NCBI GenBank assembly: GCA_039804165.1
Contig: JBDRZZ010000003.1
Coordinates: forward strand, 1-64,000
Direction of reading: 5' to 3'
DNA length: 64,000 bases
Origin: a candidate division WOR-3 bacterium
GTDB taxonomy: Bacteria > Hydrothermota > UBA3072
Below the pieces are notes generated by a model. It was given only the letters and a program-made list of their open reading frames with translations, was not told the origin of the DNA and made no database searches. Numbering within the stretch: position 1 is the stretch's first letter; each line of letters begins with the position of its first letter. Positions 10,186-48,709 of this stretch are shown here, piece by piece. The translations under genes were made by a program, and so were the position numbers.

Positions 10186-11262
10186 TTATTCTGTGGTTAT
10201 AGGCATAGATAAATAAAATATCTCTTTATCTTCTCCTTCAATACCAACAGGGTTATCTTCATCTTTAAAGTTTAAAAATGCCTTTTGAGATTTAATTTTT
10301 CTCAAAAAATTTATTAAATAATTAGAAGAAAGTGTTATTCTCATCTTATCACCTTTATATTCTCCTTTTATTTCTTCTTTACATTCTCCTATTTCAGAAA
10401 AACTTTCTATATATAAATCATCTCCTAAATCTAAATGAACACTCTTAAATCTATCATTAGAAAAAACAGAAACTCTTCTAAGGGAAGAAAGAAAAGATTC
10501 TTTATCCACAATTAAAATATTTTTTTTCTCTATAGAGATAACAGATTTATAATCAGGAAAATCAATCTTTATTAGATTAGAAACTAATGTAAATCTATCC
10601 CCCAAAAAATAAACTCTACTTTCATCTACTCCTATTTTCATTTCTTTAGAACTAAATAAAGGAAGTTGTTTTAAAATTTTAGGAGGAACAACTATCTTAA
10701 AAGGCTCTTCTCCAAGATCTATTTTTATATCTTTATATCCAAGACTAAAACTGTCTGTAGCTACAAATCTTAAATTCTTATTCTCATAATCCCATAACAT
10801 TCCACTATATCTTCTTTTAGCTGGGTCCTCCGGAACAATAAAGATAAGTTGATCAATAACTTCATTAATTTCATCCGGATTAACAGAATAAGTGTTTAGA
10901 CTCGCTATTTCTGGCTCAGAAGGGTAATCTTCTTCTGGTGTAATAGGAAGATAAGAATAACCTTTTTCGTATTCTATTTTAATCCTGTTTTCTTCTTTAT
11001 AAAATTTTATTTCACCTTCTATTTTTTCTACAATTGAAAATAATGTTCTTGCAGGAACAACAATAACACTACTCTCTTCTGTATAAGAATCCATTTTATA
11101 TATAACAGAAGTATCAAGGTCTGTAGCAAAAATATTTATTTTATTTTTTTCTACTTTTATTTTTACATTAGAGAGAATTGGAAATGTTGTATGAGTAGGA
11201 ATAATTTGAATTATAGCTTTGAACTCTCTAATAAAATCTTGAGCATTTATTGAGAACAACAT
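10186..11262 (-). CDS. dnaN: DNA polymerase III beta subunit (sliding clamp)
   Basis: A 358-residue clamp protein with three repeated folds; recognisable parts are the N-terminal FSINAQDFIREFKAI, the RTLFSIVEKI segment and the terminal LSMPITTE resembling the family ending PMR. It dimerises into the ring that tethers the replicative polymerase. It follows dnaA on the same strand, with a 164-base gap holding one perfect DnaA box. A strong Shine-Dalgarno (AAGGAGG) lies 5 bases before the ATG. The dnaA-dnaN order is the widely conserved one. Confidence 0.95.
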   Translation of the reverse strand: MLFSINAQDFIREFKAIIQIIPTHTTFPILSNVKIKVEKNKINIFATDLDTSVIYKMDSYTEESSVIVVPARTLFSIVEKIEGEIKFYKEENRIKIEYEKGYSYLPITPEEDYPSEPEIASLNTYSVNPDEINEVIDQLIFIVPEDPAKRRYSGMLWDYENKNLRFVATDSFSLGYKDIKIDLGEEPFKIVVPPKILKQLPLFSSKEMKIGVDESRVYFLGDRFTLVSNLIKIDFPDYKSVISIEKKNILIVDKESFLSSLRRVSVFSNDRFKSVHLDLGDDLYIESFSEIGECKEEIKGEYKGDKMRITLSSNYLINFLRKIKSQKAFLNFKDEDNPVGIEGEDKEIFYLSMPITTE

Positions 11263-11320
11263 TTTTCCTCCTTCTTACTACTTATAACTTATTTTTTATT
11301 TTAGTCATTGTTATATACCT

Positions 11321-11329
11321 TGTGGATAA
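11321..11329 (-). promoter_or_regulatory. DnaA box in the dnaA-dnaN gap
   Basis: TGTGGATAA on the plus strand is a perfect reverse complement of TTATCCACA. It lies upstream of dnaN and overlaps a TATATAAC stretch that could be part of a promoter, so DnaA may regulate dnaN here. Only one perfect box is seen in this gap, too few for a typical origin. Confidence 0.7.
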
Positions 11330-11426
11330 AGTGAATAAATATATCTCTCCCTTTCTTTATTTAATTTCCAATTTATATTTTTCCATATCTTTATGTAGAT
11401 AACTTGTTAATAATCTTGTTTTCTTT

Positions 11427-12752
11427 TTAAGTTTCCATTAATTTATTTTTTATTGTGGAAATGTTGTCTTTTATTTTATTATCTTTTTTAATTAAATAAT
11501 CTATTTTGTTAATAGAATGTAGAATTGTGGAATGATCTCTTTTTCCAAAATTATCTCCTATTTCTTTCAGTGATAAATTAGTTAGGTTTCTTGAGAGATA
11601 AATTGCAATTTGACGAGCAAACGCAACATTTTTAGATCTTTTATTCCCTTTTAATTCTTCTATATCTATATTATAAAATTCCGCTACAGAACTAATTATT
11701 TTTTCAAGCGTTACTTTTTTATCTTTTTCTTTGATAAAATCACGTAAAACTTTTTTGGCAAGATCTATTGTGATATCTGTTTTATATATGGAAGCATAAG
11801 CTAACAACTTTATTAAACAACCTTCCAATTCTCTAATATTAGTTTTTATATTTGATGCTATATAATTTATTACACTATCGTCAATTTGAATATTATTACT
11901 TTGTATTTTAGATCGTAGGATAGCTAAACGAGTTTCAAAATCTGGGGGTTGTAAATCTACCATTAATCCCCATTGGAATCGAGAGATCACTCTTTCCTCA
12001 AGACCCGAAATTTCCCTTGGAGGTCTATCAGAGGTTATGACAATCTGTTTTTTTGCTTCAAATAAAGCATTAAATGTATGGAAAAATTCTTCTTGTAATC
12101 TTTCTTTTCCTGCAAGAAAATGCACATCGTCAATCAATAGTAAATCTATTTCTCTATATTTTTGTTTAAATTGAACTGTAGAATATTCCTGAATTGATTT
12201 TATCATCTCATTGAGAAATTCTTCTGCTTGAGTATAAAGGATTTTAAGATTTGGATACCTTGAGTATACTCTGTTACCAGTTGCTTGAAGGAGATGAGTT
12301 TTTCCTAAACCGACGCCTCCATATATAAAGAGAGGATTGTATTCCCTACCAGGAGCATTTGAAACAGCTATTGCTGCTGCATATGCTAACCTATTGTTAT
12401 CTCCCACCACGAAGTTTTCGAAAGTGTATTTATCGTGCAAAAGAGGTTTTTGAATTCTAGGTTGAAGTTCCTCTTGAGGTTTTTCTTGGGGCATATTTTT
12501 ATTTACAAGGAAATGAATATTATAGGTCTTCCCTGTGACTTCTTTTATTATTGCATTTAAATCGTCCATAAAGTGCTCTTTTATCCAATTTTGGGTAAAA
12601 GTATTTGGTATATTAAAATAAACATCTTTATCGTATAAAGCTTCTAACTCCATATTAGCGAACCAAGCTTTAAAAGCCGATTCGTTCACTTCTTTCTGGA
12701 GTTTTTCTTTTATTTCTTTCCAATTAAATTCTTTTTGATTTCTTGGTTCCAT
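11427..12752 (-). CDS. dnaA: chromosomal replication initiator DnaA
   Basis: A 441-residue initiator. Domain I is at about 1-85 (FKAWFANMELEAL), the short linker at about 90-105, and the AAA+ domain runs from about 107, with Walker A GGVGLGKTHL, Walker B LLIDDVHFL and sensor II. Domain IV ends with the DNA-binding signature KRDHSTILHSINKI. It melts the origin by binding TTATCCACA-type boxes. The promoter overlaps an inverted repeat shared with the divergent DUF167 gene; no ribosome site is visible and the predicted leader is about 10 bases. Confidence 0.97.
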   Translation of the reverse strand: MEPRNQKEFNWKEIKEKLQKEVNESAFKAWFANMELEALYDKDVYFNIPNTFTQNWIKEHFMDDLNAIIKEVTGKTYNIHFLVNKNMPQEKPQEELQPRIQKPLLHDKYTFENFVVGDNNRLAYAAAIAVSNAPGREYNPLFIYGGVGLGKTHLLQATGNRVYSRYPNLKILYTQAEEFLNEMIKSIQEYSTVQFKQKYREIDLLLIDDVHFLAGKERLQEEFFHTFNALFEAKKQIVITSDRPPREISGLEERVISRFQWGLMVDLQPPDFETRLAILRSKIQSNNIQIDDSVINYIASNIKTNIRELEGCLIKLLAYASIYKTDITIDLAKKVLRDFIKEKDKKVTLEKIISSVAEFYNIDIEELKGNKRSKNVAFARQIAIYLSRNLTNLSLKEIGDNFGKRDHSTILHSINKIDYLIKKDNKIKDNISTIKNKLMET

Positions 12753-43723: not shown

Positions 43724-43751
43724 ATTATAAGGTTATAGAAAATTTTGTCAA
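43724..43751 (-). promoter_or_regulatory. addAB promoter
   Basis: Minus strand: TTGACA at 43746-43751, spacer 16, TATAAT at 43724-43729. The predicted leader is about 50 bases. Confidence 0.65.
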
Positions 43752-43786
43752 TGCATTAGAAACTTATTTTTTTATAGAAAAAGTTC

Positions 43787-43815
43787 TTGACAGAAAGACT
43801 TTTTTAACATAAAAT
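43787..43815 (+). promoter_or_regulatory. promoter of the lipoprotein-ROK pair
   Basis: TTGACA at 43787-43792, spacer 17, TAAAAT at 43810-43815; leader with AAGGGGGTG before the ATG at 43845. Confidence 0.65.
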
Positions 43816-45606: not shown

Positions 45607-45650
45607 TCCTTTCTTCTTAATGTTTCACGTGAAACATTAAGAAGAAAGGA
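45607..45650. promoter_or_regulatory. parS: parS site inside a perfect 44-bp palindrome
   Basis: The centre TGTTTCACGTGAAACA (45621-45636) is a perfect ParB-binding parS. Symmetry continues without mismatch over the whole 45607-45650, which is unusually long. It lies between the convergent ROK kinase and rsmG genes and includes the rsmG stop codon (45637-45639), so it may also work as a bidirectional terminator hairpin. Confidence 0.9.
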
Positions 45651-46203
45651 TAGATACAATGTTTTCTTTAACCCTTAACTCGTTTTCGCAGATAAGCTTA
45701 TTTCCTTTATATTTCCCGTAATAAATTATCTTCCTTCCTATATTTTTTGGGACTCTCTCCGGATTTACTCCACGAACTAAAACCCAATCGTATGATTCTT
45801 CAAGTTCTTCTTTTTCTTTTACAAATTTTTTTATCACTTTTATATCTATTTTCAATATGGAAGCAATGTATTCAAGAAAGACGACTCTCTTTTGTTTGGC
45901 TTCTAAAAAATGGAAGATAGTCTCTGGTAGAAAAATCTTTAATGGGATCCCTACAATCCCTCCGCCTGCTCCAAAATCAAGAATTTTTTCTCCTTTTCTC
46001 AACATCTTGTAAGGAATTAGAGAGGGTAGAATTAATTTTTTTAATATTTCTTCTTTTTTAAGTTTTTTTGAAACAAGGTTTATTTTTTCGTTCCATTTAA
46101 TTAGTTCTTCGAGATAGAAAAGAAGCAAGTTAATTTTTTCTTTATCTGGTTTAATTCCAAGTTCCTTAACACTCTTTTCGATATAATGTTTCACGTGAAA
46201 CAT
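45637..46203 (-). CDS. rsmG: 16S rRNA (guanine527-N7) methyltransferase RsmG (GidB)
   Basis: A 188-residue SAM-dependent methyltransferase. The SAM-binding ILDFGAGGGIVGIPL is clear, and KINLVSKK precedes it as in the family. The first six codons (MFHVKH) are a parS sequence, and the 3' end enters a second parS palindrome. No parA/parB follows, unlike the usual rsmG-parAB neighbourhood. Last gene of the rpsU-cvpA-mutS2-DUF5683-rsmG run. Confidence 0.93.
   Translation of the reverse strand: MFHVKHYIEKSVKELGIKPDKEKINLLLFYLEELIKWNEKINLVSKKLKKEEILKKLILPSLIPYKMLRKGEKILDFGAGGGIVGIPLKIFLPETIFHFLEAKQKRVVFLEYIASILKIDIKVIKKFVKEKEELEESYDWVLVRGVNPERVPKNIGRKIIYYGKYKGNKLICENELRVKENIVSILSS
46187..46202. promoter_or_regulatory. 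parS: parS site encoding the RsmG N terminus
   Basis: A perfect TGTTTCACGTGAAACA overlapping the rsmG start codon (46201-46203), 566 bases from the first site. Read as codons it gives MFHVKH, so protein and partition signal share the DNA. Confidence 0.9.
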
Positions 46204-46208
46204 TAGGT

Positions 46209-46598
46209 TTAAAATTTAAGACAAATTTGAGCCTTAAGAGTTCCAGAGCAATTTAAAGAAAAACTGCTTTCAAAATTATAAAGTTGAGCATCTATGTAGG
46301 CATCTAAAATTCCGATTGTCCAAACAAGAGCAATCCACCAAGTGAGTTGTGTTCTCTCTTCTAAGAGTTTTTGTCTTTTTTGTTCTAATTCTATGGTTTT
46401 GTTTATTTCTTTCTCTATTTTGTTTAACTCTATTTGGGTGTTTATTTCTCTATATAAAAAATAGGTTTGAGCTCCTCCTATTATTAGCCCTTTAAAATAT
46501 CTTTCTGTATAAAATTGTCCTCCCCCAGGGATTAAAGTGGTGAGTAACATTGCTGTTTTTGTAGATTTTGAGATCAAAAATATTATATAAGCCATCAT
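46209..46598 (-). CDS. DUF5683-like membrane protein
   Basis: A 129-residue protein with a hydrophobic helix around LIPGGGQFYTERYFKG (the typical DUF5683 motif), a coiled-coil-like stretch of Glu/Lys (about 55-82), a Trp-rich membrane helix and a Cys-containing tail. Function unknown; members often accompany envelope proteins. It overlaps mutS2 by 4 bases. Confidence 0.65.
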   Translation of the reverse strand: MMAYIIFLISKSTKTAMLLTTLIPGGGQFYTERYFKGLIIGGAQTYFLYREINTQIELNKIEKEINKTIELEQKRQKLLEERTQLTWWIALVWTIGILDAYIDAQLYNFESSFSLNCSGTLKAQICLKF

Positions 46599-48709
46599 TT
46601 AAGATGAACTATTGTGACACCTTCTCCTCCTTCATAGTGAGGAGGAGTGCTTATACTTTTTACTCTTTTGTCTTTCTTGAGTTTTTTGTGAAGCATATTT
46701 CGCAATATCCAGCTTCCTTTTCCATGGAGGATTCTAACAGAAGGGTAATCTGCAAGAATCGCTTTGTCAAGGAATTTATCGGTTGCTTTCCATGCTTCTT
46801 CTTGGGTCATTCCGCGTACAGAAATTTCAAGGGGAACATTCATATCGATATCATAGCTAATTTTAGAGAATTTAGATAAGGTTTTTATTTTCTTCTCTTC
46901 TTTTTCTTCTTTTGAAATTAAAGATGCAAAACTTTTTTTGTATTTCTTTATTGCTTCCTTGGAAGCTCTTGTTTCTTTTATTTCTTTTATTGTCTTTTCT
47001 ATAGTAGCTCTTGCGGAACTTACAATTTCGTCCGCTTTTTCTTTGGCTTCTCTTATAATTCTTTCCTTTTCTTCTTCAGCGAGTTTAATTTTAGTTTCGT
47101 ATTCTTTTTTTAAATTAAATAGCTCTTGTTTTAATTTAAGAATTTCTTCTTCCTGGTTTTTTAGATTAGTGGTTCTAATAGATAAATCTTCTATTAGGTT
47201 TTCAATCTTAAGAATATCTGTATTCATAAACTTCTTTGCCTCTGCAATAATTTCATTAGGAAGACCAAAATTTCTTGCTATCTCTATTGCTTTAGATCCG
47301 CCTGAAATTCCTATCCGCAGACGATATGTGGGCCCGTTTTTGTATTCCATCGCACCGTTTAGCATCCCTTTTTCTCTTTCTGCATAAAATTTTAAAGGAC
47401 TCAAGTGGGTGGTAGCAAAAACAAGGCTCCCTTTGGATTTTAACTTATTAAGAATGGCAATAGAAATAGCGCTCCCTTCCACAGGATCTGTATTGCCCCC
47501 AAGTTCGTCTAAAAGGATTAAAGTATTTTCATCTGCTTTCTCTAAGATTCTACTTAGTCTCACAATATAAGAAGAGAAAGAAGACAAATTCTCTTCTATA
47601 GATTGTTCATCTTCTATAATCCCAAGAACTTCTGTAAAAGATCCAAATTTCGTGCCTTCTTTTGCAGGGATAGGTATTCCTGCTAATGAAGATAAGACAT
47701 TAATACCAATAGTTTTAAGAAGAACGGTTTTTCCTCCGGCATTAGGACCGCTAATAAGAAGAATCTTTTCTTTCTCTCCAAATTCCAAATTAAGAGGTTC
47801 TACTTTTTTCTTTTCTCTCAATAAAAGAGGATGATAAGTATCCTTAAGTTTTAGTTTTTTTTCTTCTGTAAATTCCGGGATTATACATTTAAAATCTTTA
47901 GCGTACTTAATCCTTGCTATAAGAGCGTCTATTTCTCCTAATATTTTTAAATTTTTATAAATAGAAGGGAATTCCGCTTTTGTTTTGTCTGTAAGCATTT
48001 TTAAAATTCTTTTATTTTCTATTTCTATTTCATTTTCTATCTCTGCAATCCTATTATTTAAATTAATTATTTCCTTTGGTTCTACAAAAGCTGTATTTTG
48101 TGTTCTGGAGAAGTCTATAATCATCCCTTCTATTTCATTTCTTCTTTCGTACTTAATAGGAATGACCATTCTATTTAATCTTTTTGTTACAATTTTATCT
48201 TGTAAGATTTCCTTTTTTTCTTTAAATATTTGATTTATTTTTTCTTCGATCTTATTTTCCAGAGCCTTTTTTTCATTATAAAGAGATTCTAATAATGGAG
48301 TAGAAGAAGGTTTAATGGTTCCATCTTCTTCTATAAAATTAGAAATTTCTTTTTTAAGATATGGGAGGGGGATAAGCTGTTTTCTTAACTCTTCTAAAAC
48401 TTTATTTTCTTCAAGGATTTCTTTTGTCTTCTCAGAAAGTTCTAACAAATTCTTATAATAAAGGAGCTCTTCTCCTGGTAATATGTTTTCTCTTATTTCA
48501 ATTTCTTCTTTTTTTAATAATTGAAGGCTTGGGAGAAGATGGATAATTTCATTACATTCTTTAAGCCACTTAAAAGTGGTTTCTCTTTTTTCTTTAGAAA
48601 TATAAGGATTTAAATTCAAGATTATTATTTTCCCTATTTTGGATTCCGCGTAATTAGAGATTATTTCTAAGAGTTTCTCGAAACCTATCACACTCGAGAG
48701 GTTTTTCAT
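46595..48709 (-). CDS. mutS2: endonuclease MutS2
   Basis: A 704-residue MutS2 that binds branched DNA or collided ribosomes rather than mismatches. The ATPase core has Walker A GPNAGGKTVLLKT and Walker B LILLDELGGNTDP; the coiled-coil section runs at about 510-610, and a C-terminal Smr domain (LEISVRGMTQEEAW, HGKGSWILRNMLH) ends the protein. It is shorter than the roughly 785-residue B. subtilis protein, with a compact core. The order cvpA-mutS2 is conserved in many bacteria. Confidence 0.94.
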   Translation of the reverse strand: MKNLSSVIGFEKLLEIISNYAESKIGKIIILNLNPYISKEKRETTFKWLKECNEIIHLLPSLQLLKKEEIEIRENILPGEELLYYKNLLELSEKTKEILEENKVLEELRKQLIPLPYLKKEISNFIEEDGTIKPSSTPLLESLYNEKKALENKIEEKINQIFKEKKEILQDKIVTKRLNRMVIPIKYERRNEIEGMIIDFSRTQNTAFVEPKEIINLNNRIAEIENEIEIENKRILKMLTDKTKAEFPSIYKNLKILGEIDALIARIKYAKDFKCIIPEFTEEKKLKLKDTYHPLLLREKKKVEPLNLEFGEKEKILLISGPNAGGKTVLLKTIGINVLSSLAGIPIPAKEGTKFGSFTEVLGIIEDEQSIEENLSSFSSYIVRLSRILEKADENTLILLDELGGNTDPVEGSAISIAILNKLKSKGSLVFATTHLSPLKFYAEREKGMLNGAMEYKNGPTYRLRIGISGGSKAIEIARNFGLPNEIIAEAKKFMNTDILKIENLIEDLSIRTTNLKNQEEEILKLKQELFNLKKEYETKIKLAEEEKERIIREAKEKADEIVSSARATIEKTIKEIKETRASKEAIKKYKKSFASLISKEEKEEKKIKTLSKFSKISYDIDMNVPLEISVRGMTQEEAWKATDKFLDKAILADYPSVRILHGKGSWILRNMLHKKLKKDKRVKSISTPPHYEGGEGVTIVHLK

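Follow-up and report, generated by a model that had tools for sequence, protein, structure and literature searches.

In ParABS systems, ParB loads as a clamp at parS sites, spreads, and serves both ParA-driven origin separation and the loading of SMC. Among the closest described systems, Thermus thermophilus HB27 possesses a single chromosomal parS, located within gidB (also known as rsmG), with gidB immediately upstream of parA; gel-shift binding was shown there (PMC4409726). In M. bovis BCG and M. smegmatis, where the gene order is jag-gidB-parA-parB, a perfect TGTTTCACGTGAAACA lies beside gidB and overlaps expression signals; parS is in the gidB promoter, another parS is within parA, and parAB are adjacent (PMC2346475). 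The same 16-bp consensus, as cited in PMC2346475 and PMC4409726, occurs in B. subtilis at ten pseudopalindromic origin-proximal sites clustered near oriC. The locus analyzed here, from a candidate division WOR-3 bacterium, shares the consensus with the last two of these and the association with gidB with the first two. It differs from T. thermophilus in that parAB lie elsewhere and two sites are present, one of them over the start codon; from the mycobacteria in the placement of the sites and in the separation of parAB from gidB; and from B. subtilis in having two sites, both at rsmG.

Two exact copies of the 16-mer TGTTTCACGTGAAACA were found in the window (the whole stretch of 64,000 nucleotides analyzed), at positions 45621 to 45636 and 46187 to 46202, 566 bp apart and one at each end of rsmG, as a preliminary description of the sequence had stated. 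With up to three mismatches to parS allowed, these two exact sites were the only matches in the window, where shuffled sequences predict 0.14. Across the 1.955-Mb genome, perfect parS sites again number two, both at rsmG, and the runner-up has two mismatches. A recurrent three-mismatch sequence, GGTTTCATGGGAAACA, was considered as a parS and rejected; one inspected copy sits in sequence resembling a dispersed repeat. At least nine copies of GGTTTCATGGGAAACA are present in this genome (including those at position 91 of contigs C2 and C25 and position 88 of contig C47), and it also occurs near position 1501 of locus L006. Several copies stand ∼90 bp from a contig end, and GGTTTCATGGGAAACA seems to belong to a dispersed repeat at which the assembly breaks.

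The gene framed by the two sites (positions 45637 to 46203, minus strand) encodes RsmG, a 16S rRNA G527 methyltransferase of 188 aa, whose GidB domain matches PF02527 with an E value of 2.3e-28 (99.2 bits against a cut-off of 27). The protein misses the equivalog cut-off of NCBIfam TIGR00138 (87.2 versus 99.5 bits) and, judged by position and domain, is a divergent yet single-copy orthologue. The overlap of the 5′ site (46187 to 46202) with the start codon, claimed in the preliminary description, is seen directly in the codons: the gene opens ATG TTT CAC GTG AAA CAT (MFHVKH), and its bases 2 to 17, namely, the TG of ATG and the next 14, are parS. The four codons between the preceding in-frame stop and this ATG hold no ATG, GTG, or TTG in this genome; the ATG inside parS is therefore the sole plausible start. 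At the other end, the 3′ site (45621 to 45636) adjoins the rsmG stop codon (45637 to 45639).

Directly upstream of rsmG are a gene for a DUF5683 membrane protein (PF18935; 46209 to 46598, minus strand) and mutS2 (MutS_V and Smr domains; 46595 to 48709, minus strand). These two genes overlap by 4 bp, a 5-bp gap separates them from rsmG, and the three probably form one operon with mutS2 upstream and rsmG as the third gene. A ROK family kinase gene (PF00480; 44708 to 45601, plus strand) converges on rsmG. In the relatives represented by L016, L017, L018, and L019, the stop of the upstream DUF5683 gene shares bases with the rsmG ATG (TAATG or TGATG), and parS therefore directly follows the end of a second gene there too. 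Elsewhere in the window, at 43724 to 43815 between divergent genes, two back-to-back near-perfect sigma-70 promoters (12/12 and 11/12 matches) outscore the other promoter-like matches in the region.

The start-codon site might serve mainly as an operator through which ParB controls rsmG and thereby links modification of 16S rRNA to origin status. Its coverage of the start codon agrees with such a role, as does M. bovis BCG, in which the −10 box of a gidB promoter shares bases with a parS and repression by ParB has been proposed (PMC2346475). On the other side, rsmG is third in the apparent mutS2 operon, which places the site inside a transcript, and the position of parS relative to rsmG varies between families, so start-linked regulation is not what is conserved. 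We consider a primarily operator function unlikely; bound ParB may influence rsmG locally, but this is not the reading that the comparative data favor.

The genome encodes ParA, ParB, and SMC, a full ParABS set, which supports the identification of the sites as parS. As the preliminary description had noted, parAB are not next to rsmG: parA and parB adjoin each other on contig C1, at ∼101 to 103 kb, and reckoned from the contig ends they are at least ∼148 kb from rsmG (the assembly comprises 49 contigs, and distances between contigs are lower bounds). The follow-up search for parAB and for additional parS sites that it had suggested thus yielded a ParB homologue encoded beside ParA and no further perfect parS in the genome. 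Both sites are on contig C3 together with dnaN and dnaA (10186 to 12752, minus strand), the likely replication-origin region, at a separation of ∼33 kb; the GC-skew profile tracks gene strand too closely to locate oriC. The smc gene is present farther along the same contig.

The encoded ParB contains ParB_N, HTH_ParB, and ParB_C domains. Four HTH positions (173, 179, 184, and 201) distinguish ParB from Noc (PMC7383237). The protein here carries R173, K179, S184, and G201; by comparison with PMC7383237, R173 and G201 are of the parS type, and positions 179 and 184 are variable among ParBs. A Noc-like nucleoid-occlusion factor could in principle bind the sites in place of ParB, and this ParB does score 217 bits against the Noc model TIGR04285, but that is under the model's cut-off of 315, and the HTH_ParB profile matches a single locus in the genome. 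Noc combines Q173, K179, K184, and R201 with an NBS site, whereas residues 173 and 201 here are R and G and the site is parS. Binding by a Noc-like factor is thus highly improbable, and we rejected it on the specificity residues. Counting against the reading of the sites as a ParB-loaded centromere, the CTP motif of this ParB is GHRRFEA, which departs from GERRxRA while keeping the double Arg. The motif pattern had no match in the ParBs of genome G007 and families f10, f13, and f20.

A different site is found in two families of the phylum. In f5 (L164, L169, L170, and L171) and f20 (L178, L179, and L180), a symmetric variant, TGTTCCACGTGGAACA, is located at the rsmG 3′ end and, in most of those genomes, beside parB; the f5 and f20 genomes listed contain no match to the parS consensus at up to one mismatch. 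At HTH positions 179 and 184, the ParBs of f5 carry different residues (I/M, E), and it is possible that site and ParB are changing together in these families.

To compare the sites among relatives, 147 genomes of the WOR-3/Stahlbacteria phylum were searched, including 6 of the same family and 10 of the same class. An exact parS is present at the rsmG start in 9/10 class genomes, all six family genomes among them; neither rsmG nor parS was detected in the tenth, which is 75% complete. Eight of these nine read MFHVKH without variation, and their RsmG proteins are 31 to 61% identical. In pairwise comparisons of the eight, synonymous codons agree in 140/140 cases within parS versus 877/2112 in the rest of rsmG. 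In the ninth, G001, these 16 bases are translated in a frame shifted by one, as MSVSRETL, with SVSRETL in place of MFHVKH, and in family f6 VSRET likewise replaces MFHVKH while the DNA is kept. Where the site has drifted to TGTTTCACATGAAACA, in G033, the peptide has followed and reads VSHET. The same near-parS TGTTTCACATGAAACA (one mismatch) also occurs in the middle of rsmG in G001 (L012), where it encodes FHMKH in a conserved region.

Among the RsmGs of the phylum that were inspected, FHVK and VSRET termini are confined to gene ends that carry parS; ends without parS show neither peptide. The alignment of RsmG from relatives, proposed in the preliminary description, therefore shows the termini tracking parS, and a mutated site under an unchanged RsmG start was seen in none of the class relatives. 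According to these alignments, it is the DNA rather than the peptide that is conserved at the rsmG start. The invariance of MFHVKH in eight class genomes would also be expected if it were a functional RsmG peptide and the parS palindrome incidental. That explanation has next to no probability and was rejected: the synonymous positions are invariant too, unlike those in the rest of the gene, the re-phased relatives (G001 and f6) exchange the peptide and retain the DNA, and both peptides are missing from inspected RsmGs that lack the site.

At the other end of the gene, parS begins 0 to 3 nt past the rsmG stop in 6/6 family genomes (exact in five, with one mismatch in G004). Family members use either TAA or TGA as the stop codon and differ in their final residues; parS thus does not dictate the C terminus in this family. 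The initial idea that a partition signal constrains the termini of RsmG thus holds for the N terminus, where parS writes MFHVKH, and fails for the C terminus, which the 3′ site merely abuts. In sister families, parS shifts to the rsmG 3′ end, to the stop codon, or upstream, and the association with rsmG persists. RsmG of family f13 ends in VSRET, written by parS, and parS is read as CFT-stop in G021. The order rsmG, parS, parB is found in f13 and f19, with parB within ∼2 kb, and rsmG is beside parB in most members of f5 and f20, with TGTTCCACGTGGAACA placed at the stop codon or behind it. In the present genome, the 3′ site is probably a remnant of an rsmG-parS-parAB junction from which parAB moved away, the direction of change being read from an unrooted comparison of gene orders.

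Other layouts occur within the phylum. In G085 and in f22, f25, f26, and further families, parS lies apart from rsmG as well as from parB; G085, a single-contig genome, has the three at separations of 100 to 290 kb. Therefore, the link between site and gene has been broken in more than one way.

The 3′ parS is surrounded by a perfect 44-bp palindrome (45607 to 45650) that includes the rsmG stop codon, in agreement with the preliminary description. No other perfect inverted repeat in the window (spacer of 0 to 12) has arms exceeding 13 bp, and the chance of 14 further symmetric positions, given the parS 16-mer, is ∼1.7e-8. The palindrome is private to this genome, being absent from all five family relatives, the same genus included. 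The relatives' sites have 18 to 22 bp of perfect symmetry, and flank positions 9 to 22 of their 3′ sites are mostly asymmetric. One arm consists of the rsmG codons for a conserved SIL-type C terminus, and the intergenic arm is its exact mirror. Because the noncoding arm exactly mirrors the conserved rsmG arm, the symmetry suggests a template-switch copy of the rsmG 3′ end; template-switch mutations at quasipalindromes are among the events described in PMC7202029 and PMC3820800.

The preliminary description had raised the possibility that the palindrome acts as a bidirectional terminator for rsmG and the convergent ROK kinase gene as well as a ParB site. It does lie between convergent genes, its hairpin, folded together with its flanks, reaches ∼−30 kcal/mol on each strand, and its outer edge coincides on the rsmG strand with part of a weak terminator-like site. 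However, no T-run directly follows the stem on either strand (the tails are TAGATACAA and AGAGGTTATTC), the palindrome is confined to one genome, and the mirrored SIL-encoding arm fits a one-off template-switch copy. A selected bidirectional terminator is not supported by these data and seems doubtful to us; some terminator role of the folded palindrome is possible.

To estimate how widely parS is embedded in rsmG, 84,980 species genomes were scanned with a strict pattern consisting of an ATG-parS followed by WN..xNL codons at the rsmG spacing. The pattern matched 51 stretches, of which 46 are rsmG; the remainder (L089, L101, L116, L125, and L131) were dropped. Among the 46, 24 start with FHVK in frame, 19 read VSRET only, and 3 have parS just upstream; both frames are used in 13/24 of the FHVK genes, as in Asaia (MFHVKHSPTTLANVSRETL). 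FHVK starts were found in Acetobacteraceae/Rhodospirillales, Bacteroidota, Balneolales, Latescibacteria, KSB1, and Stahlbacteria. Of 200 genomes from the order to which Asaia belongs, 26 have an exact parS at this place in rsmG, with none for a reversed control pattern. The rsmG genes of Acetobacteraceae, Rhodospirillales, and Balneolales resemble the present one in starting with MFHVKH written by parS and differ in often having a second parS in the other open frame (NVSRET). Many of the alphaproteobacterial matches also have ParA within 1.8 kb downstream, unlike the locus here. In three Balneolales (L097, L112, and L120), a second exact parS encodes VSRE right after the core motif WNxxINLxSR, and parS is thus built into the body of RsmG as well.

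The expectation that a protein constrained in this way would be unusual is, accordingly, at most partly right, as at least six named groups carry parS in the N-terminal part of rsmG. A literature search for the parS reading-frame pattern in rsmG, for MFHVKH, and for parS with rsmG and ParB found no such report; the novelty of the pattern is provisional because the main parS survey (Livny 2007) was outside the search.

Taken together, the two sites are best explained, with a probability of roughly 0.87, as the chromosome's only consensus parS centromere, loaded by ParB, displaced from parAB, and built into rsmG. The ParB whose gene neighbors parA elsewhere on the chromosome would recognize both rsmG sites, load there as a CTP-dependent clamp, and spread across rsmG and its origin-proximal surroundings, and ParA and SMC would use the loaded ParB for the separation of sister origins. 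From an ancestral order rsmG-parS-parA-parB, parAB would have left, with one parS remaining behind at the 3′ end of rsmG and a second becoming fixed across the start codon. On this view, MFHVKH would be a by-product of selection on the DNA for ParB binding. The observation that parAB are unlinked to the sites is a counterpoint to this centromere reading.

The core of this system, an origin-proximal parS, is ordinary, and its recurrent embedding in rsmG is curious, real, and well conserved. The frames observed comprise FHVK or VSRET near the N terminus and VSRET or CFT-stop at the C terminus. On balance, we favor the broader view that the ends of rsmG are a recurrent and largely unremarked harbor of parS in several phyla, in all three frames and often twice per gene, and that the ParB site dictates the protein termini even after parAB have left. 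The locus provides a clean natural case in which a chromosome-segregation signal overwrites the ends of a housekeeping protein, and it offers a comparative test for ParB sites in which the DNA is frozen and the reading frame is free. Annotators should not assume that a conserved N-terminal MFHVKH or VSRET in RsmG reflects a function of the protein. The findings also suggest that rsmG, and not parAB, can anchor parS in the origin region.
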